Positions 1,492-52,300 of a stretch of DNA of 64,000 nt are shown here, one piece after another; the first letter of the stretch is position 1, and the number at the start of each line of letters is the position of its first letter. Origin of the DNA: Sabellastarte sp. h YS-2021 (Eukaryota; Annelida; Polychaeta; Sabellida; Sabellidae); NCBI GenBank assembly GCA_964017235.1, contig OZ024928.1, positions 155,706,881 to 155,770,880 of the forward strand. The letters run 5' to 3'. Below the pieces are notes generated by a model that was given only the letters and a program-made list of their open reading frames with translations, was not told the origin of the DNA and did not search any database. The position numbers were made by a program, and so were the translations under genes.

Positions 1492-1500
1492 ATTATCTAA

Positions 1501-3545: not shown

Positions 3546-3562
3546 ACTATGGAAACTGTGGC

Positions 3563-6500
3563 TGGTAATTGGTAAACTGAAAGTTATTTTCATGACATTG
3601 ATATTAAAACCTGAACAATAACCACAAGGCCCTTGTTGACCACAAACTTCTGAAAACTCATTCACACTGTGTATAACTGTGCCATAATTTGTCTTTCACT
3701 TTCCACAATAAAATCAATTCCCATCACAGTGATTCTCCACAAAATTATTACTTTAATACAAATATTAAGAGATCCATTAAACATCCCCTAAACAATGAAT
3801 GTAGTGGAAGTTAAAAATTTAGATAAAATAGTGAGTGGACTGGGGACAGTCATGTAATTTATTAATAGATCATGATATAACAGCTAAGAAGTCATTCTTA
3901 AAAACCTAGAATAAACCTGAACCTTGTGTTTAATGTCTCACCAATCAAAGAATATTATTAATCTATTTATATAAATATGTAACGGTGAATTTATTCATCA
4001 ATCTATAAAATGGTCATCAACAAAGAGGTCATCCCTAACACCCCACAACAGATCTACTACACTCTGATTGATCTCTTACAAACCAGGGCATATGTTTAAT
4101 TAATTATGAAAAATGACAATGGTGTCCCACACAGCCAACTTACTGAAGACAATATGAGATGAACCAGTCGTCAAAACAGAAGTCACACCTTTCAATAAAT
4201 TACATTTTATACATTTAAAGATCTCACACAAATCAAAGCATATGTCCAATCTAATTATGAAACAGTAATGTAGCCCCTAACTGAAGACAATATATTATCA
4301 TCATGAAACCCATATCCACTCCCGCCACACACAACCAAATTATATGAATTCAATAGTTTTAAGACATAGCCTTAACTTTATGTCTATGTCCGGGCTAAGT
4401 CCTTTTGTGAAACTGGTCCCAGGTTACACACTTGAGGGGGTACTATGATCATCTTGGAAAATAAAGGAGGACACAGGCGATTTTAAATTCTATGAACCAG
4501 TGAAAATATCTGGCCATTTGCCTACAATTACCCCACACATTACTTACGGGTAGGTGAGAATGAATGCAATCTGTAAAGACTCTTCTGCCACAAAGAAAGA
4601 ATAGGTTGAGAATGAGGAAGAACTGGCAAATTTAGTGAGAACAAGAATCTAGTATGACTTGTTGGCAAGTGCCCTGTGATGGAGTTATGACATGTAAGAA
4701 TATGTTAACTATTGTGGTGAATTGTGAACTTTACAAACAACGAATACCTGCAATAATTTGAATATCAGGTTGCTGCAGCCGTGAGGTGGCAAAAGATGAA
4801 GAAGGTTGAAGACAATGGGACAACAATGGAGAATTCGCCAACAACATTGAATAAGTTAGATAATCACAATTAAAATTAGCCATGGTCTCACCTGGACATA
4901 ACATTAATTGAAAAATTTAACCATCCTGAATCAGCATGATCCTGCCAGTCACCGTGTCTATTTCACACTTTAACATAAGTGCCATCATACAGGGAATAAG
5001 AGTTACAAGGGTAGCAGTTCATGCTAGCTAGTAGAGATTCTGCAGTGTAAACAACAGAACATGGGAAAGCAACCGCCAACTGCCCCACTTCACCTGAGGT
5101 GAAGAGCAAAAGCCTAAGTCAATAAACTCTGAGATGTCGTATTGATGATAACAGTAGGATAGTCTCAATTTAATAAGATATACTAAAGTCACTTTATTTG
5201 TTATTAGTGTGTAAATATACAGATTGTTATTGCATGTAGATGATGGTTGATGCAGTTGCATAATGAATTATCTGGAAATAGTGCAGGAAACTGGCCATTA
5301 AATGTCACATGAAGTCACAGCAACGTGAACTTACATGCAATGTTTTGCAATGATTAAGCTAACCTGTTGAGTGGTCCCGTGACAGATTGTTTCCACCACA
5401 AATTTCATCAAAGAGGAAGTAATATGTCACATATTTTTCAGTTTTTAAATACTTAAAATACAGTTTACAAGGCTATCTACTTCAGCTTTTCTGTCTGGAA
5501 TCTGGCTACTGATTCTATTAATTGTAGACAGATATATTATTTAATGCACTGACGTTCTTCAGTTTTACTAGTAGTGTTCTATTTTTAAATGGTTAGATTA
5601 ACAGAAACACATTTATTAAATTTCAAATCTCTGGTGAAGCTTCAACCTGCGAACCTATTGTTTTTTTGCCAGCTTTTAAGGAATCAAAATAATATCATCT
5701 GTTACAAAAGACTCAAAGTTGTTTTTATGAACCAATATGCAAACTCAGATCATATTGGATAATTATTGGAACTTATGAAGCAAGCTTAGCATGTACATTC
5801 TGTAAATCAAATCTATAGTTCCTATTGCTCTATGTCATCACCACTATCCCTAGATCTGTGGATAATATTTTCCCAAGCTAGAAACCAACTAAACCATTTT
5901 AGTTTGTGAAGTCACAAAACATGATTTGATTCAAGAGGGGAATATTGTCTTTCCGGTTACCTGATACAACAACTAAGCTGGGTTTTTTATTACATGATAT
6001 GTTCAAAGTTTCAGTAACACGTCTCGAGTACATGTAAGCTTCACAAATAGAGAAAGCTGAAAGCCTAAAACCTACCTGTACAGCTTGTGGGCCAAAGTTT
6101 TCCCCAAAGTTTTTAATAAATACTTTAAAGTATTGTTTAAAGTTAATCCAGAAATGTACTGTCTTATGATGTCTTGATGTGTGATTTAGAGACTATTTTA
6201 TTAATTTCAGTGAAATACTTTTTTTTAGAAATTACATAGACTGAAATAGCCAATCAAAATGGAAGCACCTGTGTTGGACAAGAAAAATATGTTGCTATCA
6301 ATCAAATCAAGTGCCACATCACTATTAGAAATCACTTAAGAAAGAGAAGTGTTTAAGAAAACACGTGGTTGAGTTGAACTATATTATTATAGATTATTTT
6401 AAACCACACCAGCAAGTGTTTTAAAGGATGTCTTTAATACGTACTAGGTGTATTGACCAGTACTGGTTATCAATAAAATGCTTCATCTCTGATTTTGTTT

Positions 6501-20070: not shown

Positions 20071-20675
20071 TAGTTCTAATTTTATGAATTATTATTACTA
20101 TTGTGACGTTGAGACATCCTCACAGCCCTCCTAATGGTGTTATTTTTCCAACTAATTATATAAACGGATGTCACTTTTGTATACGAATGGGAAGCATTAT
20201 AGTCACCATACAAATTCCTCATCTGGTGTTTTGTTTTATTATTTCCCACCTGCGAGGTATGACACTTACTTAATTAGCTGGCTAGTCAGTGCTCCGGTAA
20301 CAAATAGGGATCCGGAGCTTGGAAAAGTCATTCAGATTAATAATGGCTACTGGTTACTACTTGTTAAATAAAAAAAATGTTTGTTCCTAGTGAGGATATG
20401 ATACGGAATAGGAATGTACAAAAAATTCTCTAAATTTAAAAAACTGCATAGCACTGATTTAGGTTCTTTAGCGAAAAATGGTAAATTTGATTAATATATA
20501 TGTATGATTTAACATATATAAGGTTAGTACATTAATTGTTGACCAGTTTGAAATCGTTGATGGTGAAAACAAACTGTACTAAAATACATTTTATGGAAAT
20601 TTTTTAAATATTCTTATTCCCAGAAAATTAAGTAAAAATAACACCAATTTTCACCTTGAGATTTCTTTGCCATTT

Positions 20676-21470
20676 CTACTGAGCCCAGGAAGGGGCATAC
20701 AACTATTTTCTTGGCATTTATTTATCTAATTCCCACGAGATAAGAAGTAGTGCCAATGAGTGACGAACTTATTGCAACAAGTTAACAACTCATTAACATG
20801 AAATACCAAGTCGTTCCCACAAGTTAGCAAGTTATTCCCACACAAGATAGCAAGTTGTTCACGCAAGTCATTCCCACAAGATAGCAAGTCTTTCTCACAA
20901 GTTAGCAAGTTGTCCCCACAAGTTAGTAAGTCGTTACCAAAAGTTAGAAAGTCATTACCAAAAATTAGCAAGTCGTTGACACAAGATAACAAGTCATTCC
21001 CACAAGTAAGCAAGTCATTAGCACAAGATGGCAAGTCATTCCCACAAGTTAGCAAGTCCTTAACACAAATAGCAAGTCATTACCACAACATATGAAGTCA
21101 TTCCCACGAGTTACCAAGTCATGCTTTGATGCCAATGTACAAGCTTTTTCTTTGTCTATGATACCTAACTTATATAAAGGTCACCCATCTACTAGTATAT
21201 CATTCTAGTTTATATATCCCTGTACACTTAGTGACCTTCAGAGGTCGCATGTTTCCTGTCCAACTTTTGTACCATTATGGTTATTATTTTAACAATTTAA
21301 CAATTTTAATGATTATTCTTCTTAGGTACCTTCCTAGTGACCTTCAGAGGTCGCCTACATATTATTACAAGTATATTGCATTACTGTCTTTTAGAGGTTT
21401 ACTACTAATTAGAGTTTTTACATTGTACACCAGTGGGAAGTAAGCTGGGTAGTAACATGCCTTATATGGC
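20676..21470 (+). mobile_element. Half copy of the foldback-type element (21-bp repeat arm)
   Basis: It begins CTACTGAGCCCAGGAAGG, like the termini CTACGGAGCCCAGGAAGG of the full element at 42803-44800. It then carries about 18 copies of a 21-bp repeat (word AAGTCATTCCCACAAG; about 20738-21115). It continues into the same interior sequence found inverted at 43955-44270, including two AGTGACCTTCAGAGGTCGC words. The opposite arm is missing. Confidence 0.75.
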
Positions 21471-25432: not shown

Positions 25433-26842
25433 ATGAACCCAAGTTATTCTATAAGACTGGTGGGAGTGGTGGTAGTTGTAATGTCCATCAATTCATTCAC
25501 CAAAGGCAGCTCTTCAACAGTAGCAACCACAGCCACTGGGAGTACAAAGCCTCAAATCCAAAGAGAAAACACAGCCATTGAAACAACAACTACAGGTTTT
25601 ATACCTCTCCTTGATGTCACCGACACACCCACCCACGACAATAAAACTCAATCGGACTCTGAGGAGTCTGGGAAAGAATTTGATACAAGAGAAAAACAAG
25701 AACAGTTTACTAGTAAACAATATACTTTCAATGACAAACACATAACTGATGATCATGGGATGTACAGCAACATAACCACTTCTGGAGAGAACACAGTCTT
25801 TAGCGAATTCACATCAGATACTCCAGTGACTGAAGATGTTGGTAATCGTGCTGGAACCAGTGTTGATCCAGTGCAGTGGGTGGGCTATGTTACTGTACCA
25901 TTGCTATTCAGTACAGGTGTTCTGGGTAATGTGTTGATCATTTGTGTTATGCGAAGGCCAGCCTTTCAAAACAAATCCTTCAGTGTATTGACCATTGTTC
26001 TTGCCTGTTCTGATCTGGTCATGTCTGTGATGTTTCCTTTCAATAAACAGTTTGTCATAAGATTACTTCAGTGGGATATCCGTTCCCAGGGCTGGTTTGG
26101 TTGTCGACTCTTTTTCTGGTTATGGCGTACATCCAAAATGTCCGCATCTTGGTTGATTGTGTTGCTCAGCATTGAGAGATTTGTAGCTGTATGGCTGCCT
26201 CTACATGTGAAACAGCTCTGTACTTTTAAAAATGGATGCAGAGGCAGCCTCCTGGTATTCCTTGTGATTGGTATATTCAATGGGGTTTGGGTATCGATAA
26301 GTGATCACTTGCATAATGGAGTGTGCTCTCCAAACTTCCCGGTCTCTGAGGACATGGTTAGCATTGTCAAATCCCTAGTAATTGCTGGCGCCTCAGTTTA
26401 CTGTCTTATTCCTGGCTTCTTGATCTCTGTTTTTAATATTCTGATTGTTGGCAAACTGCACAAAAATAAAAATATCCAAATGGCCTTGGGTAGAAGAAAC
26501 AATGTAAAGGCTGGAAACAAGGCTTGGACCATGTTGGTCTCTATCTCAATTGCTTTCATAATACTGGTTGTTCCTACTGGTATTCTCCATTGCTATTCTG
26601 TTTTCAGTGGTCAGAAAATATATGTGAGCAATAAGCCAAACTTTGTCATAGTTAGGGAAATTGCTCAGTTTTGTGAACAGCTCAATCATGCTATTAACCT
26701 GTTCATGTACATCCTTTGCAACAAGAGGTTTCGCACAGAGCTGAAACTGATTGTGACTGCAGGGGTTTTAACCAAAACCAACTCACTGACAGCAAATGAA
26801 ACTCGTATGACATCACTGAAAGAAATCTCCAACCAGTTTTGA
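25433..26842 (+). CDS. Class A (rhodopsin-family) GPCR, peptide-receptor-like orphan
   Basis: This 469-residue uninterrupted frame is complete. A hydrophobic N-terminus (about 8-19) may be a signal peptide. It is followed by a long Ser/Thr-rich ectodomain to about 145 with N-glycosylation sites. Seven helices follow: TM1 about 149-172 with GN at 165-166; TM2 about 185-205; TM3 starting at Cys224; TM4 about 271-291; TM5 about 312-340; TM6 about 365-388 with a Pro but no CWxP; TM7 about 405-428 with NHAINLFMY. The DRY position reads ERF (248-250), and Cys298 can pair with Cys224. This suits a plasma-membrane receptor of the neuropeptide/FMRFamide-like type; ligand unknown. It has no intron in the coding region and shares blocks (MFPFNK, SIERFVAVW, REIAQ) with the disrupted receptor at 49113/57748, so the two are local paralogues. 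Confidence 0.92.
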   Translation: MNPSYSIRLVGVVVVVMSINSFTKGSSSTVATTATGSTKPQIQRENTAIETTTTGFIPLLDVTDTPTHDNKTQSDSEESGKEFDTREKQEQFTSKQYTFNDKHITDDHGMYSNITTSGENTVFSEFTSDTPVTEDVGNRAGTSVDPVQWVGYVTVPLLFSTGVLGNVLIICVMRRPAFQNKSFSVLTIVLACSDLVMSVMFPFNKQFVIRLLQWDIRSQGWFGCRLFFWLWRTSKMSASWLIVLLSIERFVAVWLPLHVKQLCTFKNGCRGSLLVFLVIGIFNGVWVSISDHLHNGVCSPNFPVSEDMVSIVKSLVIAGASVYCLIPGFLISVFNILIVGKLHKNKNIQMALGRRNNVKAGNKAWTMLVSISIAFIILVVPTGILHCYSVFSGQKIYVSNKPNFVIVREIAQFCEQLNHAINLFMYILCNKRFRTELKLIVTAGVLTKTNSLTANETRMTSLKEISNQF

Positions 26843-32470: not shown

Positions 32471-33330
32471 AAGAACAGGGACTTTGTTTTATTAACAGGG
32501 ATTAGCTAAGTCCCATAGGAAATGGAAGGGAACAAAATCTCAAATGCAATTGTAAAGAAGGATTTAGAAAGCACCCAATAAAAATTGTCTACGGATTATT
32601 GTTAGATTTCTGTATTTTCACTACTTCTGAAATCTTTGACTTCCACTTGACTCCCTTTAAGTGGAAAACTTATTTTTACCCGCTTTTTTCTTTGCCACCT
32701 TTCTATTCTGACTTGATTTTGACATTTTCACTTCAGTGAGGGTATTGTTACTTAAAAAACGGGAATTATCGGTCTAAAATTTTTTATGTGTATTGTTACA
32801 TATTGTTATCTCTCTTATTTTCTGGTTGTTTTTTTTTCTTGTTTTGACCTTTTTTGTAATTTTCTTGGAAATTGTTCACACTCCCGTAACTTTACAGCTT
32901 TATGTGCCCTTTTGGTTTTGGTGTCCATATTGCTTAGATTCCTGTGTTTTCAGCTGGCTTAGTGGGAAGTGAAGGGTGCCATTGAGTCGCTGGTCATGGG
33001 ACAAATTACTTGGTTTCAATTGGTCAGACTCCCAAAAGTGCCTTTCTTTTTTCAGTTTAAACCACTGAAGTATGTCTACTCATTTTGCTCCATATTATAT
33101 GTTCCTTGTTGTCTCTTCTTTTCCTCCGAGAATGTATATCACAAGGGTACAGAATTTTTTGTAAGACCACTCATGGTTACAGCCTACTCCCTTGACCCTT
33201 CAAGCAGCCAAGTTGTTGCATTAATGTTAATAACTTCCCATGTATTGCTAAGTTTAGGGGTCTATATGTCCTACTTTTACAGTGTAGTGATATTTCCCTA
33301 AACACCGATCCTATCTCTTTTAGTGTTGTA
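32471..33330. other. Noncoding stretch
   Basis: No supported feature. The open frame at 32969-33301 lacks domain character. Confidence 0.35.
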
Positions 33331-33332
33331 AA

Positions 33333-33350
33333 CTGTCTTACTCATGATGC
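33333..33350 (+). pseudogene. LINE RT fragment A, part 1 (left of gypsy insertion)
   Basis: The bases before the gypsy LTR (TGTCTTACTCATGATGC) line up with 'tttcttagtcatgatgc' of the LINE at 61167-61180. The reading frame resumes at 42366 after the element. Confidence 0.55.
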
Positions 33351-34565
33351 TGTAACGTGCCATGGGTCTTGAGTTTAACTAATGTCAAGAGAAAGCCTTA
33401 TGTCACATTAGAGAACATTTATTTACAAAATATAACAAGTATTTTACCAGCAATTGCTGGGGCTGAATTGGTACAAGCACTAACGTCACAAAAGTATTAA
33501 AAATAATCAGTAATCACATTTATATTATATACATTCAAATAATTCCCCAGAATCAACTAAAAGAATTGAAAACAAGTCATAACACCGGAAACCTACTGTC
33601 TACTGATACTTAGACCTTGGATCATACTCTATGTCAAAACACTGGTTCCATCCTTTATCAAGTACCATAGTAGATTCAGTACCCAATGAAATGAATGGAA
33701 ATGAATTCAATTAGTCATGGGTTTTACCCCATGAAACATTAATCAAATCACCAGCATTCAGCCTGAAACCTATAATCATATGACTGAAATCAATACATCA
33801 GGCGCAATCAACCACATGCAATTATAACACTTCAGTCCATTCAATTCTTGTCAGGTTTTACCCTGCCACTAGAAATAAATACAAACTACTTCATCATTAA
33901 TTCATTCAAACATAGTTAAGTACAACAAGCAGCAAAGTATTAAATGAAACCCCAACTTCCCCTGAAATAAACAGTTAAAATATCATGATACTTTAAAGTA
34001 AATTTCCAAACAGGTTTTACCCTGAAATCAAACAGAAATTATGTACAGAACATTCTCCTTTCCCTGCCTGCTTTACAATGTTACCAAAGTCATCTTGCAA
34101 CTTTCCCTGCAACCTATGAAAATAATACCATGCAGGTTTTACCCTGACATTCCTAAAATCTAACAACAGAAGAAAAATACCAGGTTTTACCCTGACATGT
34201 CTGTCTCCTGCTACCTATACCAATTTAGCAAAGAATGACACAATTCACCCTGCTTTTTATAGAGAATCCCAGACATGGGAGAATAACTCAAAGTCTGCAC
34301 CTGTAAAATTGAAACAAGGAATCCTATTGGTCTAAAATTTAGTATTCTCCCACACTTTGAAGTGACAACTTCCTCTTTGCACATTGACATGAGGATACAA
34401 TACAAACCACTTACAGCAATCATATACAACAAGGATAACAGTATATGACACCAAAAAGGTAAATAAATACAAGTTACAATCATAATACATCAATTTAAAA
34501 CCATTTCATAACGAAATGGTGAAAACGTAATATCGCCGATTTTGCCGATATCACCGCATGCTTCA
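33351..34565 (-). repeat. 3' LTR of the gypsy element
   Basis: This 1215-bp repeat, read on the minus strand, begins TGAAGCATGCGGTGATATCG and ends GGCACGTTACA (TG...CA). It contains four CAGG-TTTTAC-CCTG hairpins (33852, 34011, 34133, 34181) and a CATGGG/CCCATG one (33716). Confidence 0.95.
33716..33733. other. TTTTAC-loop hairpin in the 3' LTR
   Basis: Arms CATGGG and CCCATG around the loop TTTTAC. It is one of a series described in the findings; the equivalent in the other LTR is at about 41171-41188. Confidence 0.75.
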
Positions 34566-34578
34566 TTACCCCCCTACT
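34566..34578 (-). other. Polypurine tract of the gypsy element
   Basis: On the minus strand the run AGTAGGGGGGTAA abuts the TG start of the 3' LTR, where plus-strand priming is expected. Confidence 0.7.
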
Positions 34579-35060
34579 GATAAAAACTAACTTGTCCCGA
34601 GTTAGGCATCCTAATTTTTACAACTGCAGCATCAGTAGGTCACAGACAATATATTTACCATAACCTAACTCATCATATGCCACACACACAAATAATAACA
34701 ATAATAATAATATGAAGTACAATATAAGCATGCAAAATATGAAATTTAATTTACTATATACTCCATGTTAAAAAAAAACATGCACACAAAAAAAACAGTT
34801 TATAATGTCCATAATGTCCATAAAAACACTGTTCATAAATGTCCATAAAGTCCATTGTCCTTGGGTCCCAACAATGCTGTTCATCCTAGAATCCTGTGAA
34901 GTTGAATGTTGCTCATCAGAGTCCTGTGAAGTCCAACGCTACAAAGATACGAGAACATCCACACTGTGCAACTGCCAAGCCATGTCAGCCACTTGTACAT
35001 CAATGATTTCCTCAGACACTTCCTCGCATAAAACTGGGAAAAAGGTTTTACCCTTTTTCA
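34579..35060. other. Untranslated 3' interior of the gypsy element
   Basis: Short (AAT)n at about 34687-34710 and repeated GTCCATAA words at about 34807-34855. No coding sequence. The 8-bp-arm hairpin at 35038 lies at its edge. Confidence 0.5.
35038..35059. other. TTTTAC-loop hairpin, 8-bp arms
   Basis: GAAAAAGG and CCTTTTTC pair perfectly around TTTTAC. Confidence 0.75.
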
Positions 35061-36590
35061 TCAATTACAATTGGCAAATAAATTCCAACTTCTGGTAGTA
35101 CGCTCACATCTGGACAGAGAAGCCTCATCCAATGTTTTACCATCAGACTGTGAAACTGACCTTGTTGGAGAAGAATGTGTCAATACTTCACCATTGGACA
35201 AATCAGTTGAATTCTGTGACTCTGACAAAGAAAAAGAATTGTCCAGTGTTTTACCACTGGATGAATTGGAAACATACTGGTCACTTGGTACTTCTTCAGA
35301 ACCTGGAAAAGAAATCAAAATTTCTTCCCTATCATCTGCTGAATTGTTGAAACCATGCAACCCGAATTCACATTCTTATTTTCTTGATCTAAAGTAGATC
35401 CTAAAACTTTGTCATTTGATCCTTGTAACCAACTGTCCGATCTGACATGAGCAGGTTTCAATCTGTCATGATGTACATACTTCAAATCAGATTTGGATGA
35501 CCTTTGAATCTGATACACAAGATCTGACACCTTCCCAACTACTAGAAATGGGCCTGTCCATGGAAGATGAAACTTAGAACTAGTGCCCTGTTTCCTAGCT
35601 GAGCTGTGCAGATATACTGTATCTCCCACTGCATAAGATTTGAAGTTTTTCCTGAAATCATAAGCCTTTCTTTGCCTATTACTAGACTTGAGTAACTTTT
35701 CCCTAGCTATATCATGAATTCTATGCAGATTTTCTCTCAACTCTTTCACATAAGCAACACCAGATACCACACTTTGTGTCTCAGGAATGCCCTTCCCTAA
35801 CATCAAATCAACTGGCAACTGAATATCCCTACCTAGCATCATCCTAACTGGACTTTCACCAGTAGTCTCATGGATAGATGACCTATAGGCCATCATTGCT
35901 AATGGTAAACAATCATCCCAGTTCTTATGATTTGTTTCCACCACCTTACTTAGCATATCCTCTAAGGTCCTATTAAATCTCTCTACGAGACCATCACTTT
36001 GGGGATGATAAGGGGTGGTACGAGTGAAACAAGTTGGACTCAAACTATGCTCCTTGATCTGAGTGAATCTGGCTTGGAACTCCAAACCTTGAAACAAAGC
36101 CTTGAACTAAACAATCAGCAACAGTACTAGCTTCCTGATCTGGCATACCAAAAGCTTCTACCCAATGAGAAAAATAATCACTAATGACTAGAATATATCT
36201 ATTGCCATTATAAGTCTCAGGCAAAGGACCTAGTATATCCAAAGCAACACGCTCTAAAGGGGCACCTACATTGTATTGCTGCATTGGACCTCTAAATTTT
36301 CTCACTGGGGACTTCCTCCTTTGACAAACCTCACAACTTTGACACCACACTATAACATCACTCTTACACCCTACCCAATAAAAATGACTACGCATTCATG
36401 CAAGAGTACGTCTTATGCCTAGATGACCAGAACTGGCTTGGTCATGCAACTGATTCAAAGCTAAACCTCTGAGAGATTCAGGCAGGACCAACTGAAGCAC
36501 AAAGTTACGTTTCCCTGTGGGCCACCACTTCCTATACAAAATGTCATCCCTCAAAACCAGTCTATCCCACTGAGACCAGTATGCTTTCAC
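35061..36590 (-). pseudogene. Gypsy integrase region, broken
   Basis: The first piece (36396-36590) carries the H2C2-type zinc region start (LHDQASSGHLGIRRTLA). An in-frame TGA then separates it from HFYWVG..SDVIVWCQSCEVCQRR (36045-36395), which leads into the catalytic core: ALDILGPLP, ISDYFSHWVEAF and SDQG. A TAG plus a small frame-changing deletion follows. The third piece (35315-36097) resumes at TTPYHPQSDGLVERFNRTL with the remaining acidic residue region and ends with a GPF motif (WTGPFLVVG). A last frameshift near 35340 leads to a Ser/Asp-rich tail (35061-35360) that contains GKTLD twice, each from a TTTTAC-loop hairpin. Integrase would insert the cDNA into host DNA; this copy cannot. 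Confidence 0.9.
35242..35261. other. TTTTAC-loop hairpin, 7-bp arms, in coding tail
   Basis: TCCAGTG and CACTGGA pair perfectly around TTTTAC. In the minus-strand frame the loop region encodes GKT. Confidence 0.75.
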
Positions 36591-36611
36591 AACACTATTC
36601 TGGTGTGCTAT

Positions 36612-37592
36612 CTAAACCCACTTTGGTCTTTGATCAGTTTCTATCATAACCTTAACAATTCCAATGTAAGGATCCTTTTCCTGAGCTTCACAGATGTCTG
36701 TTGAGGTTTTACCCTCAATCCAAGCCTCAGTAACACCCTGCATTGAAACATTTCTCACATTTGAACACGAGCATTCATCCTCTACACACTGACTGACTTT
36801 CATCTCAACTTTATCACAATACCTGCAATCACTGCAAGGTCTGCGAGAAAGACTATCTGCATTACCATGCAACCTGCCAGCTCTATGTACCAACTGGAAA
36901 TTGTATGTCCCTAAATACTCACTCCATCTTCCAAGTTGACCCTCTATATCTCTAAAATTCAAAAGCCAACGCAAAGAACCGTGATCACTTCTAACCACAA
37001 ATGGCACAGCATAGAGATAAGTATGGAAATGTTTCAAAGCATCAACAACAGCTAAAAGCTCTCTTCTGGTAACACAATAGCGCCTTTCAGACTTTGTCAG
37101 AGACCTGCTGTAATAACCTATCACTCGTTCATGTCCATCTTGCTCTTGTGACAAAATAGCACCTAAACCCACACCACTAGCATCTGTATCTAGAATAAAG
37201 TTCCCTTTTGGATCTGGATATGCTAGAACAGTAGCTTCAACCAATGCTTCCTTCAGCTTAGAAAAGGCATTTTGACAATCTATGCTCCAGTGAAACTTTA
37301 CATTCTTCTCTGTAAGCCTATGTAAGGGTTTTGCTAAGGTAGAAAAGTTTCGAATGAATTTTCTATAGTAAGAACACAACCCTAGAAAACTCCTCAATTC
37401 CTTCAAAGATCTAGGAATAGGCCAACTTAAAACTATCTCAGTTTTCTGGGGATCAGTCCTTATACCCTCTGCCGATACAATGTGCCTTAAAAAACGCACT
37501 TCTTTGCGGAACAATTCACATTTCTTAGGCAACAATTTCAGACCAGCTGCCCTTAATCTTGTAAAAACTTCCCTCAAATTATTTAGGGGCAT
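36612..37592 (-). pseudogene. Gypsy RT thumb and RNase H domain
   Basis: The frame starts just after the RT deletion at NNLREVFTRLRAAGL and covers the RT palm end and thumb (LRSFLGLCSYYRKFI). It continues into RNase H with TDASGVGLGAILSQ, the E of RRELLAVV, SDHGSL and HGNADSLSRR. The catalytic D, E, D and D positions are visible. RNase H removes the RNA template during cDNA synthesis. It shares no frame with the upstream RT half because of the deletion near 37588. Confidence 0.92.
36701..36718. other. TTTTAC-loop hairpin, 6-bp arms, in coding sequence
   Basis: TTGAGG and CCTCAA pair around TTTTAC. The minus-strand frame reads EGKTST here. Confidence 0.75.
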
Positions 37593-38009
37593 TAGTCAAC
37601 CCAAATGGCATGGCACAGAATTGAAACAGACCACTTAAACTAGCAAAAGCTGTTTTCTCACGATCCTCTGGATCCATCTCAATCTGCCAATAACCACTTT
37701 GTAAATCAAGAGTGCTAAACCACTTTGCTTCCCTAAGAGACTCCAAGCAATCCTGTGGATGAGGCAAAGGATAAGAATCCTTTATGGTAATGTTATTCAA
37801 CTGACGGTAATCAATGCAATATCTGATTGAACCATCCTTCTTTGTCACTAAAACAACAGGAGATGCCCAAGGACTACAAGACGATTCAATTACACCAGTT
37901 TCTAACATTTTATCAATTTCCTCTCGCTCAACCTTCCTTTTTGCCAGGGGTAACCATCTTGGTCTTTGTTTGATAGGTGCATGACTACCAGTACCAATCT
38001 TATGTTTCA

Positions 38010-38034
38010 CTAGATGAGTTTTACCTCTATCTAG
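38010..38034. other. TTTTAC-loop hairpin in the RT coding region
   Basis: CTAGATGAG against CTCTATCTAG around TTTTAC pairs with one bulged base. It encodes part of DRGKTHLVK, a conserved gypsy position, so here the loop word could be native coding sequence. Confidence 0.5.
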
Positions 38035-38945
38035 CTTTGACTGAGCGAAGAGATCACTATGAGAGAGAAGTAAAGCCTTAGCCTGACGCCTCTGATCTTC
38101 ATTCAGACTACTAGAAAAACCTGCAAATACTGGTTCAATGTGCTCAGGAAGATCACCATTAGTACTACATAAAGTCACTGAATCAAGCTTTGAACAATCA
38201 GCTTCACCAATTGACCTTATATCCTGGACAATACTACACTCTCCCAAGATTGTTTCCTTATGTAACTTGATACACTCATCAGATGGGTTCATTGCCCTCA
38301 CAGGAACAACAGATGAATCAGTACTAACTAAAGCTTTTGCCAACACTATACCCCTCTTGCAACACCTCTCAGAAGATTCTATCATTAGACATTCAGGCAA
38401 AACAGTATCACTAGAATCAGAAAAATATCCTGGAAGAATCATTTCTGAATTCCCGGGAACCTCAATATCTTCAGCCAGCTTTAGTCTAAACAAAGAACCA
38501 ACCTTACTCTCCAACACACAAGGAACACTTTTGCCATCTATACTCAAAGAGTTATTGGCCACGTCAATCACACAACAATTGTTTGACAAGAAATCATTCC
38601 CTAGTATAACTGGTTCATTTGTCTCAGCATCAACAAAGTTGTGATTGAAACTACCCAATCCAGTCTCAAGGGACATGGTCACTTGTCCCAAAACCCTTAT
38701 CCTATCACCATTGGCTAGTACAATGTTCTTAGTGAGTTCTGTCAATGAAGGCCTGATGCTAGATGGGATTGAATAAAACTTCTTAGGATGGAGTATGGAT
38801 TTGTTGGCCCCTGTGTCAGCCAAACAGTTAACCTCAATACCACCACCTAACTTTGCCTTTAAATACAATCCATCTTTACATATGTTAACTCTGGGCCCAA
38901 TGGTCAAGTCAGCTGAAGTATGGCCCCCTACATCAGCTGTTTCTC

Positions 38946-38952
38946 TTTTAAA
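38946..38952 (-). promoter_or_regulatory. -1 ribosomal frameshift heptamer (gag to pol)
   Basis: On the minus strand the gag frame reads TCT TTA AAA GAG, so T TTA AAA fits X XXY YYZ exactly in phase. A -1 slip continues FKRETADVGG into the protease frame, while the zero frame stops at TAG 15 nt downstream. Confidence 0.7.
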
Positions 38953-40129
38953 GATTCCTTCTCACTCCTGCCAGATGGAAGCTGAGACCTATACTTATCA
39001 CAGTCTATGATGTAGTGACCTTTCATACCACAAAACACACAAGTAGGCTCAACATTCTGCTGATCAGCCTTATACTTCCAACATTTCAACATAATATGAC
39101 CCATACGACCACAATAATCACACTGGGCATTCACTCTATTGCTTTGACTCACTTTCCCTGAAACTTTTGTTGGGCAATTAGCTTTGAAGTGACCCACTTC
39201 CCCACAGGAAAAACACTTCTTGGATGATTTTCTGTCCTTAGAATTCCCAGTTTCAGAACCTAACTCCCAAAGATCTATATTATCAAATTTTGTGATTCTA
39301 AGACCTTCCAAACGTCTCTCTAAATCTAACACTTTATCCTGTAAAGTAGCATAACTATCACTTTCATCCTTGCTAAGAACTTCCCAAAGTCCGCTTTTGC
39401 CTAGTAGTTCTAAAAGCATCATACTCAAGTGCAACTTGTACAGCTTCTTGAAGAGATTTGGGATGACGCTGAAACACAACTAACTCAAGCTCTCTGTCTC
39501 TCAATGCTTCAATAAATGCATCCTTAGCAATGCCTTCCCTTAATGAACTTGGAAGATCACCGTATGCAAATCTAACCAATCTACTAATTTCTTGAGCCAA
39601 CTCAGGTATGCTCTCCTCTGATTTCCTTACCCTGTTTTTCAGCTGTGCCTTGTATATCTGACTAAGATTCCCTGAATCAAATCTATTTGCCAAAGCTTGC
39701 TTCAAACTCGGATAATGAGTTCTCTCATGGAATTCCAACTCACTCGAGACAAAGACTGCTGTACCCCTTAAACAAGATGCTAGTTCCAAAGCCATTATGC
39801 TTAAATTCCACCCAGACAACTGGGAAATGAGCTCAAACTGAACTACAAAATCACTGAAACTAGACTTTCCATCATAAGCAGGGGGTCTTAAATTTCTCGG
39901 TGATTGAACATTCTGAACGTTCCTTGACCTTGACAAATAAGGTGAATGTGGTCTATCTGACCTACCTAGTTCTTCCTGCAGCGACCTTATATTTGGGTCA
40001 GACCTGTCTTGTGTACAACCAACAGTGTTACTGGGGGGTTCCACCCTGTCATACCTTGCAACACCTGGAAATCTGTCATAAAAAGGAAACCCCACCCTTT
40101 GGCATTCCATAATACTCTCAACAAAATCA

Positions 40130-40151
40130 GTAGAAGGTTTCACCCTTCTAC
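40130..40151. other. TTTCAC-loop hairpin, 8-bp arms, in gag
   Basis: GTAGAAGG and CCTTCTAC pair perfectly around TTTCAC, a one-base variant of the usual loop. A weaker relative (AAGG-TTTTAC-CCTT) lies at 40212-40225. Confidence 0.7.
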
Positions 40152-40541
40152 CTTCCTCCACCCTACCAGGGTTATGAATATCCTCAAAACAAGGACTTCT
40201 GGGGACTGAGTAAGGTTTTACCCTTTCACCAGTCTTCTCAGGGACTCTGTTATCATACACCTGATTTCCAGATCTAACATCTGAAATCGGCTCCCTATTA
40301 GGCATATAACCTTGTCTTTCAAATCCTTCCTTAGAACTTTGGGAATACTGAAGTGACAAATGATTGACAAATGATTCTTGCCCCTCAAAGCTTACACATC
40401 TTTCTCTTTGCTCATGACTAACATCATGTAAAATCCTATGTTTGGACCTGGGCAATTCTGATTGCCTATACTGTCCCTCCATCTCATTGATATGCTGCAT
40501 ATAAGTATCCATCTTAATAATAACAGCACTCAAACCAAACT

Positions 40542-40699
40542 CTGTCAAGTCTTATGTGACAGAAAACAAAACCAAATAAACAGAACTGTCAAGTATTACC
40601 TCAACAGAAACTAAACAAAATCTAATATGATCAAAGTTTCTGTCAGGTTTTACCTTGACAAAAAGAAACACAGAATCTGCTAAGTTTTACCTAAGCAGA
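40542..40699. other. Cluster of four hairpins in the gypsy 5' leader
   Basis: Between gag and the primer site there are four units: 40542-40562 (CTGTCA / TGACAG), 40586-40607 (CTGT..AAG / CT..ACAG around TATTAC), 40636-40669 (TGTCAGG / CTTGACA around TTTTAC, extended by GTTTC / GAAAC), and 40676-40699 (TCTGCT.AG / CT.AGCAGA around TTTTAC). Some have a mismatch or G-U pair. Confidence 0.65.
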
Positions 40700-40792
40700 A
40701 CAAAAAACAACAAATCTAGATCTAGTTTCTAATATACCTCAAGACATTACATTCAACAATGGCACCAAGTAATTACACATTTATTCAAATTA

Positions 40793-40810
40793 ATCCCACC
40801 ACTGCCACCA
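40793..40810 (-). other. Probable primer binding site of the gypsy element
   Basis: On the minus strand TGGTGGCAGTGGTGGGAT begins 5 nt after the 5' LTR end. A TGG start fits pairing with a tRNA CCA end. I did not identify the tRNA. Confidence 0.55.
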
Positions 40811-40815
40811 AATTT

Positions 40816-42365
40816 TGTAACGTGCCAAGGGTCTTGAGTTGAACTAATGTCAAGAGAAAGCCTTATGTCACATAAGAGAACATTTATTTACAAAATATAA
40901 CAAGTATTTTACCAGCAATCGCTGGGGCTGAATTGGTACAAGCACTAATGTCACAAAAGTATTAAAAATAATCAGTAATCACATTTATATTATATACATT
41001 CAAATAATTCCCCAGAATCAACTAAAAGAATTAAAAACAAGTCATAACACCGGAAACCTACTGTCTACTAACACTTAGACCTTGGATCATACTCTATGTC
41101 AAAACACTGGTTCCATCCTTTATCAAGTACCATAGTAGATTCAGTACCCAATGAAATGAATTCAATTAGTCATGGGTTTTACCCCATGAAACATTAATCA
41201 AATCACCAGCATTCAGCCTGAAACCTATAATCGTATGACTGAAATCAATACATCAGGCGCAATCAACCACATGCAATTATAACACTTCAGTCCATTCAAT
41301 TCTTGTCAGGTTTTACCCTGCCACTAGAAATAAATACAAACTACTTCATCATTAATTCATTCAAACATAGTTAAATACAACAAGCAGCAAAGTATTAAAT
41401 GAAACCCCAACTTCCCCTGAAATAAACAGTTAAAATATCATGATACTTTAAAGTAAATTTCCAAACAGGTTTTACCCTGAAATCAAACAGAAATTATGTA
41501 CAGAACATTCTCCTTTCCCTGCCTGCTTTACAATGTTACCAAAGTCATCTTGCAACTTTCCCTGCAACCTATGAAAATAATACCATGCAGGTTTTACCCT
41601 GACATTCCTAAAATCTAACAACAGAACTTATCTGCAACTGTGGCCTAGCGGGTAACACACTTGTCTAGGAACTCAGAGGACGTGGGTTCAATCCCAGGTA
41701 CAGGCAGATATATAGTGGCTCGGATGACCACTTAAAATGGCGGTCCTCTGTCATTGGGTCCTATCCCCAGTGGCAGGTTAAAGAACCTCAAGGACGTTGA
41801 TAAATGGTCATCCTTGAGCCTCTATCTTTAAGTTAGGGGAATGTCAGTTACTTGTGATTTGGGGCTGTACTTGTACAGTCTGATTGGTTAAATAGCGCTT
41901 TGAGTCCTGTAGTATATGGAGATATTGCGCTGAGTATAAATACATAATAATAATAATAATAAAAAAACAGAAGAAAAATACCAGGTTTTACCCTGACATG
42001 TCTGGCTCCTGCTACCTATACCAATTCAGCAAAGAATGACACAATTCACCCTGCGTTTATAGAGAATCCCAGACATGGGAGAATAACTCAAAGTCTGCAC
42101 CTGTAAAATTGAAACAAGGAATCCTATTGGTCTAAAATTTAGTATTCTCCCAAACTTTGAAGTGACAACTTCCTCTCTGCACATTGACATGAGGATACAA
42201 TACAAACCACTTACAGCAATCATATACAACAAGGATAACAGTATATGACACCAAAAAGGTAAATAAATACAAGTTACAATCATAATACATCAATTTAAAA
42301 CCATTTCATAATAAAATGGTGAAAACGTAATATCGCCGATTTCGCCGATATCACCGCATGCTTCA
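40816..42365 (-). repeat. 5' LTR of the gypsy element, with SINE insertion
   Basis: It is co-linear with the LTR at 33351-34565, with scattered substitutions, a 10-bp indel near 41155 and a 346-bp SINE plus target duplication at 41627-41972. Confidence 0.95.
41627..41965 (+). repeat. tRNA-derived SINE family B inside the LTR
   Basis: It has an A box TGGCCTAGCGGG, B box GGTTCAATCCC, a body with 'ggcggtcctctgtcattggg', and a tail 'gatattgcgctgagtataaa' followed by (AAT)n. The 7-bp duplication AACAGAA flanks it (41620-41626, 41966-41972), and the other LTR shows the empty site. Confidence 0.92.
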
Positions 42366-42742
42366 ATGCTTCTATACTTGTGGCTTGTTGGATTACTATA
42401 ACTCACTTTTGATGAGTCTCTCTAAGTTCAATCTACGTAAATTTTTGTCCATCCAAAATAGTGCAGTTAGAATTGTATCAAATACCAGTAGATACATTAG
42501 TATAACTTCTGTGCTTAACAAATTGCATTGGCTTCCTGTTGAACATCACTCAGTTTTTAAAACAGCCACACGTGTTTACAAGTTCGTTCACACTGGTTTT
42601 CCCAAGTATTTTTCTCCGTATATCTCTTCCTACAGCAGTTCTTACAGTACCAGTCACAGTCAGAGTGTTTGTAATTTCCTTGTCATACTAAATTTTCAAC
42701 ATTCTATTCATAAATCTGTCAAACAGTTTCCCCAGTGAATAT
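42366..42742 (+). pseudogene. LINE RT fragment A, part 2 (CR1/L2-like C-terminal region)
   Basis: The frame 42358-42738 reads LLDYYNSLLMSLSK, LRKFLSIQNSAVRIV, ITSVLNKLHWLPVEH, VYKFVHTGFPKYFSPYI. This is the standard thumb/C-terminal region of CR1/L2-type LINE RTs (LDYCN, LQ.VQN.AAR, LHWLPV). It continues the fragment ending at 33350. Truncated at both ends. Confidence 0.8.
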
Positions 42743-42861
42743 ACTTTGTAGTCTCTCTCCTGAGGTGGTCAGGAACATTGGTGTTTGGTTTGAATCAGAT
42801 TTCTACGGAGCCCAGGAAGGGACGTAGTACTGTTTTCCTGTTATTTTTTTATCTTGTTACC

Positions 42862-43476
42862 ACGAGATAGTAAGTCATTCCCACGAGATAGTAAGTCATT
42901 CCCACAAGATAGCAAGTCTTTACCACAAGATAGCAAGTCGTTCCCACAAGTTAGAAAGTTGTTACCACAAGATAGCAAGTTGTTACCCCAAGATACTAAG
43001 TCGTTCCCACAAGTTAGCAAGTCGTTCCCACAAGATTACTAAGTTGTTCACACAAGATTACTAAGTTGTTCCCACAAAATATACTAAGTCGTTCCCAAAA
43101 GATTACTAAGTTGTTCCCACAAGATACTAAGTCATTCCCACAAGTTAGAAAGTCGTTTCCACAAGATAGAAAGTCGTTACCACAAGATATTAAGTCATTC
43201 CCACAAGTTAGCAAGTCGTTACCACAAGATAGAAAGTCGTTACCACAAGATACTAAGTCGTTTCCACAAATGTGCAAGTCACTCCCACAAGATAGTAAGT
43301 TGTTCCCACAAGATAGAAAGTCATTCCCACAAGATAGAAAGTCGTTTCAACAAGATGCTAAGTCTTTCCCACAAGATACTAAGTCATTTCCACAAGTTAG
43401 AAAGTCATTACCACAAGATAGAAAGCCGTTCCCACAAGATAGCAAGTCGTTCCCACAAGTTAGAAAGTTGTGTTAA
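42862..43476 (+). repeat. 21-bp minisatellite, left arm, about 29 units
   Basis: The consensus is AAGTCGTTCCCACAAGATAG with a variable last base. Variants alternate CACAAGATA and CACAAGTTA. The 21-bp period keeps both strands open as heptapeptide repeats. Confidence 0.9.
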
Positions 43477-44269
43477 TGAGATATTAAGTAGTACTATTTA
43501 TTTTACATAATAGTTATAACAGTGACCACTAACAGCTTGATAGTATTATCAATTATTACAGAAACTAGTTAATAATACATAAATTCATTTAAGATTGTTA
43601 CTAGATAAAAAACAGAAACATTATTTACAACATACATGAGCACATAATGGTGTGGTTCGCCCCTAAAGTGCCATAAGCAGAGACTATAACCCAGTTAGTA
43701 GTAAACCAAGGAAAAGAAATGGTCTGTGAAGAAAGAAAATGTAAGTTATAGTGTAATGTATATAAAGAAGGGGTTGAGAATGATAAGACTAAGCAATTTA
43801 CACTATGAAAAGACTATGCAAATTGCAGCACAGCAAACACGAGTTTTGCTGTGTTTGTGTAAGCTTATAGGAGAATCTGATGGAGATCCTGCAAGGTATG
43901 TTGTGCCAAAAAGCACTCAATCCAATGTAACATATTAAAATATCTTAGAAAGACGAAGGAGAGTGCCATAAAACAGGCACCTCTAAAAGACAGTAATGCA
44001 ATATACCTGTAATAATAAGGTTGACCTCTGAAGGTCACTTGGTAGGTAACTAAGAAGAATAACCATTAAAATTGCTAAAACGATAGCCATAATGGTATAA
44101 AAGTTGGACATGTAAAGTAATAGGAAAAATGCGACCTCTGAAGGTCACTAAAAGCCTACAGGCATATGTAAACTTGAATGGTATGCCAGTAGATGGATGA
44201 CCTCTATATAAGTTAGGTATTATAGACAAAGAAATTGCCTGTATATTGGCGTCAAAGCATGACTTAGTA

Positions 44270-44755
44270 AAACTCGTGGGAATGACTTCATATCTTGTGG
44301 TAATGACTTGCTATCTTGTGGTAACGACTTTCTAACTTGTGGGAATGACTTGCTAACTTGTGGGAATGACTTTCTATCTTGTGGTAATGACTTTCTAACT
44401 TGTGGGACCGACGTGCTAACTTGTGGGAATGAGTTAGTATCTTGTGGTAATGACTTTGCTAACTTGTGGGAACAAGTTAGTAACTTGTGGTAATGACTTT
44501 GCTAACTTGAGGGAATGACTTAGTATCTTGTGGTAATGACTTTCTAACTTGTGGGAACGACTTAGTATCTTGTGGTAATGACTTTCTATCTTATGGGAAT
44601 GACTTGCTAACTTGTGGGAACGACTTAGTATCTTGTGGTAACGACTTTCTAACTTGTGGGAACAACTTTCTAACTTGTGGGAACGACTTTCTATCTTGTG
44701 GTAATGACTTTCTATCTTGTGGGCCCAACTTACTATCTTGTGGTAACGAGATAAA
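44270..44755 (-). repeat. 21-bp minisatellite, right arm, about 23 units
   Basis: The same repeat in reverse orientation (ATCTTGTGGGAACGACTT), making the two arms foldback partners. Confidence 0.9.
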
Positions 44756-45382
44756 AAAATTACAGGCAAACAGTTCTATGTTCCTTCCTGGGCTCCGTAG
44801 ATTCTCCTTCTCTTGCTATGTCAAAAATGCATGATGCCCCTCTGTTGGTTTCAAATGTGTTGGTTGGGAGTAGTCTTGATTACTGTAATTCTTGTTTAGA
44901 AGTCTCTTTGCTCTTGATCTTCGCAGGCTCCAGTGTGTAAAGAACAGTCTTGTTAGAATATCAAAAAGATTCTTCATTGGTTGCCTATCAAGCATTGATC
45001 TGTTTTCAAGATGGTCTTAGTGGTGTACAAGTTCCTACAAAGTGGCTATCTTAAATACTTTGAACCTTTCCTTAAGCCCAGACAGAGTGTGTACAGAACT
45101 CATAGAAGTCAATCTGATGGTGTGTTGCTTGAGGTACCACACTTGGCATCAGTATATAGGTCTACACAGCATTTTGGCCTCAGCTTTGCATTAAGCAGTA
45201 GATTAAATTAAATTGTGAAGCAACTTAATATCTTTATAAATCTAAATAGCTACCCTAATTTTTGTTATTTATCGAGATTAATAAATTACATTAAAAATAT
45301 TTGGTTTAGATTGCCAAACCTCTCTGTGGTATTGTTTAAAACATTGAGGAATCTATTGGAGCTCAAACTTGATATCTTATAC

Positions 45383-49359: not shown

Positions 49360-52300
49360 ATTAACAATAAATACAAAGTACACACAAATACACATACAAT
49401 AAATTCACAACATACACCAAAGTTACATATGACTACCTACAATTTGTGTGTTACCACTAAAACTACACTACTGAAATTAAAACTAACTAAAAGGGGGTTA
49501 CTAAAAACAGAAATTACACTAAATAATTTTTTGCAGGCACATATTTTAAAAATTACTGTGAATAACACCAGGACACACAACTAACTGAGGTTGACCCTAG
49601 GTGCCAAGCAGCAATATGCAGGCATTTCCAACTGCAAACCTTTCAACTGCAGATATTTGTAACTGTGTTTGTTAACATTGTTGGTACTGTAGGGGGTTTT
49701 TGTTACTGACTGTACCACCACCCAAATACCAAGTATTAAGGTTGATGTAGAAGTGCAGAAGAGAGAAGGGGTGATTACTGAGTGCATTGTAATCAAGATA
49801 ATAACCAAGAAGATTCACACAAATTGGTTAATGCCAATAGGGGCCAGAGAGTGCAATTTGAATATCCAAGACAACTCAATACGCCTACGCTTGGAAGTGT
49901 TGGATGCTTCAAATTTAGGTGTGCACCACTCTAGCACAGAGAATTGCATGTTCTTGTGGTTATGTCCATCACTTGTGAAGTGACGTGAGACAGGAGTGTC
50001 TATTGTATCTGCCTTTTGTACAGAATGTCTGTGTTCATACATTCTTTGTCTAAATGCACGTGAGGTTTCCCCCACATAGTGTTTGTTGCATTTGGAGCAG
50101 GTAATCAGGTATATGACATTATTAATTTCACATGAGAAATTCTTGGGTAAGTTTTGTGTGTTGAATAACTTGTATGTAAAGTTACATTTTACTGATCCCT
50201 TCTTTTTGATTAGGGGGCAGTAAGTGCATTTACCGAGTCTGGTGCATACAGGTAAGTATGGTTTTGTTTCTATGTCAGTAGTGGGAGGGTAAGTGAGAGT
50301 GGCATTTGTTAATTTGTCTCTCAAGTTTGGTAGTCTCCTAAAACCTACCAGAGGTTTGTCTTTAAAGATTGGTCCACAGTCCTGGCTATTTGTTATAATA
50401 TTCCAGTTTTTGTGGATCAGTTCCTTAATGTTGGGGTTACCTGGGTTATAATTGGTTACCATTACTGGTGTCTTGACAGGTTCTTTCCTTGTCACTGCTA
50501 ATAATTCATCTTGTGTGAATTTTGAGGCTCTATTGTAATGTTTGCGTAGAGCCTTTTCTGGATATCCTCTTTTTAAGTAATAGCCAATGAGTTTATCAGG
50601 ATTCATATTAAAGTCATTGTCATATGTACAAATTCTTCTGAGTCTTAAGAATTGGCCATATGGTCCCTTTGTCTTACTTGGTGCGTGGTGTGCAGATGTA
50701 TAGTGTAGGTACAGATGGGTGTCTGTGGGTTTTTCATATAGGGTTGTGTATAGTTCCCTATCTTGGTTAATCTTTACTGTGGTGTCTAGAAAGTTAATGT
50801 GTGTTAGGCTGCTTTCATGAGTGAACTTAATAGTAGGATGTATACTATTAAGATATGTGATGAACTCATTGAGCTGATCTTCTCCATGTGTCCACACCAT
50901 CCAGATGTCGTCGATGAACCGAAGCCATAGTAGAGGTTTCAATGGCCAATTTGCTAGTGCTTTAGTCTCAAACCTGTCCATGAATAGGTTTGCATAGTTC
51001 GGTGCTGTTGCCGTACCCATTGCTGTGCCTCCTATTTGGAGATAATGGTCTCCATTGAAACTGAAGCTCATAGAATGTAGTACTAGTTTGAGTAGGTTTA
51101 ATATGTGGGGTCCCATTTTTCGTTTATCTGGGTCCTTCCTCAAGTGTTCTGCCACAGCTATTAGACCTTCCTGATTTGGAATGTTTGTGTATAGTGAACT
51201 AACATCTAGTGTAACTAGTAAGGCTCCTTCTGGGAGTTTGCCAAGTTGTTTGATCCTACTTATGAAGTGTTGTGTGTCTCTTACATAAGATTTTGTTTGA
51301 GGAACATATTTCTTTATGTGTTCGTCTACAAATTTGCTAATGTTGGCTGTGGGATGGTTTATTGAACTACATATTGGTCTACCAGGCACTCCCTTTTTGT
51401 GGATTTTTGGTAGCATGTAGAACCTGGCTTCTTTTGGATTGGGCACATTGAGATAATCAAAGTTTTTCTCTGTGATTAAGTTTAGTGATCTCATTTGTGT
51501 TAATTCCTCAGCAATTTTCTCAGAAATTTGAGGTGTTATGTCCTCAGGTATTTTCTGGTAAAACTTTTCATCTTGTAGTTGCCTGTAACCTTCTCGTAGA
51601 TAGTCAATAGTGTTCATTACTACTACTGCTGACCCTTTATCTGCCTTCTTTATGATTATATGGGGGTTAGAAGTTAGTTTGTTCATACCTATGTTTTCAC
51701 CTTTGGTGATGTTTTTGTGTCTAATAGGTTTGAATTTTGACTTTAGTATTTCTTGCTTGACCGATCGTTGGAATAAGTCAAGGGTTCTGTTTGGTGGTTT
51801 TGACCTCCAGGTTGATTTGGGTTTGAACTTTTGTTGAAGTTCTTTATTGAGTGTGGATTCATTGTCAGAGTCAGATTGGTCCTCCCTAGCATTTTGATTC
51901 ATAAAATCTATGATGCTTTGGCTGACTTGTGGTTGTATTGAGTCAGTCTGATCTCTACTGAAGAATTCCATTAGTTCTAATCTTCTGTGGAACTCTTTAA
52001 AATCTAACCATATCTGAGATTTGTCAGGTAGGCCAGGGGTTGGGCAGAAGGTAAGTCCCTTTTCTAAGGCCGATATTTGGTCTTGGTCCAAGTTGACATT
52101 TGATATGTTTATAACAGTATGTCCAATGTAACTTTCGAACTTGGTATTCTTAGGTAAGATACCAGGTTGTGCTGTTTTGGCCTCAGTTCTGAGGGTGTCT
52201 AAAAAGTTAGGTTCCTCAATGTTAGACATGTTTGAAATGAACCTGTATTTTATCCATTGGTGGGTTGTCCTTGAGGTAGTTTTTGGCTATTCAGGGGGAG

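Follow-up and report, generated by a model that had tools for sequence, protein, structure and literature searches.

GUAAAA-loop hairpins in a group of Ty3/gypsy retrotransposons of Sabellastarte: a candidate dispersed RNA recognition motif

The closest described counterparts of the structures discussed here are the dispersed RNA packaging signals of enterovirus-E and poliovirus (PMC7793301), hepatitis B virus (PMC7612645) and satellite tobacco necrosis virus (PMC3593212). In these, many short stem-loops lie across the genome RNA, share a loop motif on differing stems and are bound by the coat or core protein. A similar arrangement of stem-loops is found in a Ty3/gypsy retrotransposon at 33351-42365 of a 64,000-nucleotide stretch of DNA (the window) from the annelid Sabellastarte sp. 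h YS-2021 (contig OZ024928.1, 155,706,881 to 155,770,880), where hairpins with different stems close over the same six letters. The two cases also differ, as the viral loop motifs are short and loose (RAR, RGAG) whereas the gypsy loop is nearly fixed over six letters. Moreover, the signals of PMC7793301 were found by binding selection and the gypsy hairpins by comparison alone, and their carrier is a Ty3/gypsy element.

Ty3 itself belongs to the same broad element group as the window element. Its cis-acting packaging sequences lack a clear or precise definition (PMC4974528, PMC11381356), and multiple scattered sites are thought likely to contribute to packaging (PMC4974528); the accessible portions of these two papers describe no repeated fixed-loop hairpin. 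An Rfam search of 33001-42800 at the gathering score returned 0 matches, and a known RNA family was rejected on this basis; no comparable system was found in the open-licence PubMed Central (PMC) literature, a result limited by the choice of search words. Hairpin loops that display a short word to an RNA-binding protein, with several such loops on each RNA, are also known from CsrA/Rsm. These hairpins (PMC7652899, PMC3791407) belong to a bacterial regulatory system whose loop word and protein are unrelated to those considered here.

The GTAAAA sites of the window element are very probably selected RNA hairpins of the sense strand. The original prediction, made from the window, had offered such a structure (stem-GTAAAA-stem in the transcript) as one of two alternatives, and it is supported by covariation, confinement to a single strand, loop specificity and recurrence in related families. 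With the viral packaging signals the hairpins share their large number, a common loop, free stems and covariation, conservation within families being weak; by analogy they would work like dispersed recognition hairpins, short of an established membership among packaging signals.

Hairpins of the window element

The element was identified by its Pfam domains and its pair of long terminal repeats (LTRs) and, because it lies on the minus strand, each TTTTAC of the plus strand is GTAAAA in its RNA. Arms were scored at +1 for a Watson-Crick pair, -0.5 for G.T or A.C and -1.5 for any other combination, with a score of at least 4 counted as a hairpin. Complementary arms of this quality flank 17 of the 21 plus-strand TTTTAC words in 33351-42365, those at 33442, 34616, 38019 and 40907 falling below the threshold, and none of the four on the opposite strand. 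With one LTR counted (33351-40815), perfect arms of at least 4 nt occur at 9 of 15 non-redundant TTTTAC sites (with fewer distinct stems than sites, as the four CAGG/CCTG sites share one 14-mer), compared with 37 among 7459 positions when six-base loops of every sequence are counted. Outside the element, 0/78 TTTTAC words on both strands of the rest of the window reach 4-nt arms and one reaches 3. Chance as the source of the hairpins is ruled out by the counts in the element, in the rest of the window and in the four families described below.

The sites that the original prediction had listed are present where it placed them, with an enrichment far beyond chance. It had also proposed a comparison with other loops, which turned out in its favour, since no other 6-mer closes such perfect arms more than once within 33351-40815. 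The stems that it gave as examples are complementary, except for a mismatch in the stem at 40641 (loop 40648) and an internal A-A mismatch at 40676 (loop 40685). It placed the motif in one gypsy element; the element does carry it, but several related gypsy families share it.

Copy L010 of the window family, hereafter family W, has 19 GTVAAA hairpins with a score of 4 or more. Each LTR contains five, and the leader and the 3' untranslated region (UTR) have three apiece; of the remaining three, two fall within gag and a single one within the RNase H linker. A TATA-like word precedes the first LTR loop by 70 nt in L010, 103 nt in L049, 80 nt in L050 and 66 nt in L016 (family D), and AATAAA lies downstream of the LTR hairpins in W and also in L049 and L050, the end of the family A LTR being unmapped. 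This position between the two signals would place the LTR hairpins in the R region and hence at both ends of the element RNA. The frame of the loop in seven gag or protease hairpins is codon position 1 in four and position 2 in three, so that no single peptide accounts for these hairpins.

Related families, loop rules and covariation

In the genome searched (G000, 1.79 Gb), a search with the RNase H piece, in which 123 of 5243 first-look candidates were scored, gave at least 124 matches, and pieces of some matches were taken. Besides W, these include family A (L029, L041, L042, L044 and the 5' part L049), family B (L030, L046, L047, L048 and the 5' part L050) and family C (L043 and L045), which are 63-65% identical in the RNase H piece and carry GTAAAA hairpins with other stems. 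Hairpins scoring at least 4 make up 7/13, 7/12, 7/10 and 8/12 of the GTAAAA words in the 3' parts of family A, 10/12, 2/4, 11/13 and 9/12 in those of family B, and 4/6 and 3/6 in those of family C; they are also present in the LTR family D (L016 and others) and in a diverged W-like LTR, L027.

When every loop of 4-9 letters was ranked in each family, without a preset word, according to how many distinct hairpins have it as their loop, GTAAAA was the top word in all four, at E 2e-14 (W), 8e-14 (A), 2e-14 (B) and 9e-5 (C). For ten further gypsy copies (L031-L040, 3' parts of about seven families), the E of the best exact loop word was 3e-2; none of the GTAAAA words in these copies has arms scoring at least 4, and the 5' pieces L051 and L052 contain 0/2 and 0/3 GTVAAA hairpins. 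The scan of the genome and of related gypsy copies suggested with the original prediction has added three families with the same top loop word and ten copies without it. A tree of the RNase H-integrase proteins unites A, B and W in one clade (support 100/99); it holds 19 of 21 rows, family C (L043, L045) having been left out for open frames below 300 amino acids, and is rooted at the midpoint, with a program warning of long branches. A scan of viral contigs for relatives found none.

Other repeated hairpins were observed among these copies. Three with the loop (A/G)AAATCT and stems ACTT/AAGT lie within 100 nt of each other in L031 (3212-3320); they are probably a local duplication, and the loop could also be that family's own. 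In the related copies L037 and L040, a few stems that differ from one another share the loop AGTAGT, without reaching significance. In family B, hairpins of the 3' UTR and LTR (L030, L047, L048) lie in units about 54-99 nt apart that differ as TGAAG/CTTCA and AGAAG/CTTCT, which suggests that the units spread by local duplication.

The tolerance of the loop was assessed in W, A, B and C with single-letter variants of GTAAAA, arms of at least 4 being required and identical short contexts counted once. Hairpins are closed by GTAAAA at 33 of 57 sites, by GTGAAA at 6/23, GTCAAA at 3/19, CTAAAA at 1/3 and GTTAAA at 0/14, and by all other single-letter variants at none in these families. The closing pair is G-C at 46 of the 57 sites. 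Over 56 of these 57 GTAAAA sites, taken regardless of their arms, the Watson-Crick share at pairs 1-6 is 0.82, 0.86, 0.73, 0.70, 0.50 and 0.52, against 0.72, 0.38, 0.40, 0.28, 0.27 and 0.32 after permutation within families (excess z 3.5-8.1), and pairs 7-10 show no excess. No such pairing is seen at 20 sites of the antisense word, and it disappears when the loop is shifted by 1 or 2 nt, save for 0.43 at the first pair for +1. Furthermore, the hairpins keep one orientation relative to the element sense, bar two score-4 antisense TTTTAC sites (L029, L044).

Further support for selection on pairing is provided by one orthologous coding site, the linker between RNase H and integrase, which reads x-E-G-K-T-S in W, A, B and C. 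Its codons are ATT GAG GGT AAA ACC TCA in W and in C (L043), ATA GAG GGT AAA ACC TCT in A and CTT GAA GGT AAA ACT TCA in B; two of the stem pairs join third codon positions, where changes are synonymous, and have changed on both sides (G-C to A-U, U-A to A-U). The alignment comprises 13 sequences, 7 of them distinct, the L045 site of family C with one mismatch at the third pair having been left out, and 97.6% of its cells pair. Of 500 shuffles, 1 reached the observed covariation score, 1 the observed percentage of paired cells and 1 the observed count of doubly changed cells; these counts stand for few independent events because the rows within a family are closely related. Alignment of orthologous copies, which had been proposed as a check for covariation, thus revealed compensatory changes at the linker, while pairs 1-6 covary over the 56 sites; in the family A copy L041, the closing pair of one LTR hairpin has likewise changed on both sides, from G-C to A-U. 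The peptide does not force the hairpin, as L031 retains W-L-E-G-K-T-S as CTT GAG GGT AAG ACG AGT with no hairpin; one conserved peptide as the cause was rejected on this ground and for the two frames in which the loop is read.

A second coding site follows the first zinc knuckle of Gag, where A has AAG TCT GGT AAA ACA GAC and B has GTA TCT GGT AAA ACA GAG, which can pair over 6 bp in A and 4 bp in B, the B hairpin being absent from the local minimum-energy fold. W has GTT TCA GGG (L010: GAG) AAA GTG AGT at this nucleocapsid linker; it lacks the hairpin, and visual inspection shows no gap. At the RNase H-integrase linker, comparison of L031 with the hairpin families (tblastn) shows no gap at the hairpin and an 8-residue insertion two residues upstream. 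The diverged LTR L027 has no empty site at any of its five hairpins; three match in every letter, and the other two differ by substitutions, which in one case produce a GTGAAA loop. On these alignments, hairpins are gained and lost by substitution at the sites examined.

Between W and the L027 LTR, 5/76 bases have changed in hairpins versus 199/877 elsewhere. Among copies, the changed bases in hairpins, 25-nt flanks and the rest are 3/456, 59/1395 and 236/5390 in W and 13/186, 56/436 and 308/3322 in D, a comparison that is biased for the CAGG sites, not for the CATGGG site, because some W and D LTR copies were fetched for holding CAGGTTTTACCCTG. The corresponding counts are 8/354, 26/924 and 410/5060 in A, and 5/263, 99/621 and 640/2482 in C, whose set contains poor alignment.

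Anatomy of the element and its surroundings

The Pfam domains of the window element follow the gypsy order, zf-CCHC, RVT_1 (part), RT_RNaseH, RT_RNaseH_2 and Integrase_p58_C, and the pol of this copy is broken up over several frames. Its LTRs have TG...CA ends, and ATGC stands on both flanks as a short target duplication. The features are collected in Table 1.

Table 1. Hairpins and other features of the Ty3/gypsy element, in window coordinates
Feature	Position	Strand	Remarks
3' LTR	33351..34565	-	sense begins TGAAGC, finishes GTTACA; repeated directly at 40816-42365 (two pieces, identity about 97.5%)
5' LTR	40816..42365	-	interrupted by SINE-like insertion of about 336 bp at about 41627-41962
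TATA-like box (sense TATAAAAA) in LTR	34254..34261	-	about 65 nt upstream of first LTR hairpin loop
AATAAA (sense), poly(A)-signal-like word	33418..33423	-	five LTR hairpins between AATAAA and TATA-like box
LTR hairpin 1, CAGG-GTAAAA-CCTG	34181..34194	-	5' LTR copy, loop 41986
LTR hairpin 2	34133..34146	-	5' LTR copy, loop 41592
LTR hairpin 3	34011..34024	-	5' LTR copy, loop 41470; unchanged in L027
LTR hairpin 4	33852..33865	-	5' LTR copy, loop 41311; unchanged in L027
LTR hairpin 5, TCATGGG-GTAAAA-CCCATGA	33715..33734	-	5' LTR copy, loop 41177; unchanged in L027
Leader hairpin TCTGCTTAG-GTAAAA-CTTAGCAGA	40676..40699	-	one internal mismatch; identical in 6 copies aligned
Leader hairpin TGTCAAG-GTAAAA-CCTGACA	40641..40660	-	one mismatch; fully paired in 4/5 other aligned copies
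Third leader hairpin	40585..40608	-	window loop GTAATA; GTAAAA in 5/5 other aligned copies
gag hairpin AAGG-GTAAAA-CCTT	40212..40225	-	loop read V-K (frame from copy L010)
gag hairpin GTAGAAGG-GTGAAA-CCTTCTAC, variant loop	40130..40151	-	
Gag nucleocapsid part, three CCHC zinc knuckles, candidate loop reader	38998..39221	-	ends estimated
Coding hairpin TTGAGG-GTAAAA-CCTCAA, RNase H-integrase linker	36701..36718	-	read E-G-K-T-S
3' UTR hairpin TCCAGTG-GTAAAA-CACTGGA	35242..35261	-	
Weak 3' UTR hairpin	35128..35147	-	arm 3, score 4; better pairing and loop ATAAAG in 3 other aligned copies
3' UTR hairpin GAAAAAGG-GTAAAA-CCTTTTTC	35038..35059	-	

The insertion in the 5' LTR, which the 3' LTR lacks, has the look of a short interspersed element (SINE) derived from tRNA, with an AATAAT-rich tail and an AACAGAA-like duplication on its flanks; ARAGORN found no tRNA in 41627-41962. 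A 21-bp minisatellite adjoins the element at 42791-43482, and similar arrays lie at about 20670-21400 and 43980-44800. Elsewhere in the window, a single frame of 804 amino acids on the minus strand (49815-52229) with reverse transcriptase and GIY-YIG endonuclease is a Penelope-like element, and an open frame of 469 amino acids on the plus strand (25433-26842) encodes a rhodopsin-type G-protein-coupled receptor.

Candidate readers of the hairpins

The hairpins may be regarded as copies of one sense-strand RNA recognition motif, with a stem of about 4-8 bp and free sequence, a closing G-C pair and the hexaloop G-U-(A, then G, then C)-A-A-A. Each element RNA would have some 19 of them (counted in L010), in the LTR, leader, gag, RNase H-integrase linker and 3' UTR, and selection would retain the loop and the pairing, not the letters of the stem. 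Near-fixation of five of the six loop letters, with G-C closing and free stems, is what a loop-reading protein would be expected to select. This reader would be a protein, for which the nucleocapsid of the element's Gag, with its three zinc knuckles, is the likeliest candidate, and the many sites might help Gag to select and condense its own RNA in the manner of the dispersed packaging signals of RNA viruses. Three CCHC knuckles are present in the Gag of W, A and B (the first one of the window element is a Pfam zf-CCHC match, and all three are seen in L010), and one knuckle in each of five families without the hairpins, in the pieces seen (L052, L055-L058). A repeated recognition motif with the nucleocapsid as reader and RNA selection as its purpose is put forward tentatively, at slightly below even chances, and the nucleocapsid as such is named as the reader with similar reserve. 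Rather more speculative is a distributed packaging code, in which some 19 hairpins in UTR and coding sequence would present the hexaloop GUVAAA (V mostly A) to the three-knuckle nucleocapsid.

Several observations weigh against this reading or soften the evidence for selection. At the RNase H-integrase linker, the number of doubly changed pairs (2) was reached by 60 of 500 shuffles and that of pair types by 429 of 500. Folding of the transcript, which the original prediction had proposed, agreed in part, as the hairpin is part of the minimum-energy structure of the 126-nt context in 35 of 54 cases and missing from it in the remaining 19. In family B, whose set contains poor alignment, changed bases in hairpins, flanks and the rest (80/507, 261/1452, 1067/4794) differ little, and in better-trimmed sets, in which the badly aligned stretches of the "rest" class were unused, the difference is modest (34/1629 changed cells in hairpins, 131/3622 in 25-nt flanks). 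The wobble strand test gave 21 interior G.U to 10 A.C, and 31 to 18 outside stems, which is not a clear difference. The L031 loop word.AAATCT reaches E 3e-3, with one free letter and the 5' pieces of two families added, and knuckles do not predict hairpins, since the L031 family combines three knuckles with an absence of GTAAAA hairpins. In yeast Ty3, internal nucleotides 429-4979 are mostly dispensable with proteins in trans (PMC4974528), which means that dispersed internal sites are unneeded there. Lastly, the binding of Gag to the hairpins is itself a proposal drawn from sequence.

The same RNA motif might instead be read by a host RNA-binding protein involved in the export, stability, translation or localisation of the unspliced element RNA, which we consider possible, if doubtful. 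KH/STAR proteins, which favour UAAA words, are one candidate class. The crowding of the sites in the LTR, leader and 3' UTR would suit mRNA regulation, and the three knuckles of the L031 family without hairpins also point this way. However, these families would be almost the sole users of that protein's site, given the 0/78 sites in the rest of the window and given that, among about 100 matches listed of the 829 to CAAG-GTAAAA-CNNG in the genome, 12 have a matching right arm and 7 of these 12 lie in window-family copies. A host-wide motif was rejected for the same two reasons. As a separate observation, more of the listed CAAGGTAAAACNNG places have the form CAAGGTAAAACGAG than any other, and this form seems to be part of another repeat.

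It is improbable that the hairpins act without a dedicated reader, as pause or strand-transfer sites of reverse transcriptase or through RNA-RNA contacts. Their layout, with hairpins in the likely R region, would make plausible pause sites, but pausing does not require near-constancy at five of the six loop positions on free stems, and simple loop-loop self-pairing is out because GUAAAA is not self-complementary. A role in DNA, as a palindromic binding site or cruciform, seems very unlikely. It could draw on the abundance of the CAGG form CAGGTTTTACCCTG, found at 571 + 750 = 1321 places on the two strands of the genome versus 134 + 148 = 282 for the backward-read control; yet the outer stem letters vary while still pairing, the orientation to the element sense is, with the two antisense sites mentioned, a single one, and the window LTR has no hairpin upstream of its TATA-like box. 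The second alternative of the original prediction, a tiny palindromic mobile element that inserts its own loop and forms stems from the target, would fit the dispersed positions and differing stems but is scarcely credible, because turnover by substitution speaks against it and there is neither a gap at the RNase H-integrase and nucleocapsid linkers nor an empty site at the five L027 LTR hairpins.

The reading of the hairpins as a recognition motif for the element's own Gag bears on a poorly defined matter, namely the means by which Ty3/gypsy elements distinguish their RNA from that of the cell. The hairpins provide a sharp, testable motif with natural variation, present in four families and absent from about seven sampled, to which the compensatory changes at synonymous positions inside pol add. 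If the reading is true, a Ty3/gypsy RNA-selection signal would be readable directly from sequence, and its spread and covariation could be tracked across families.

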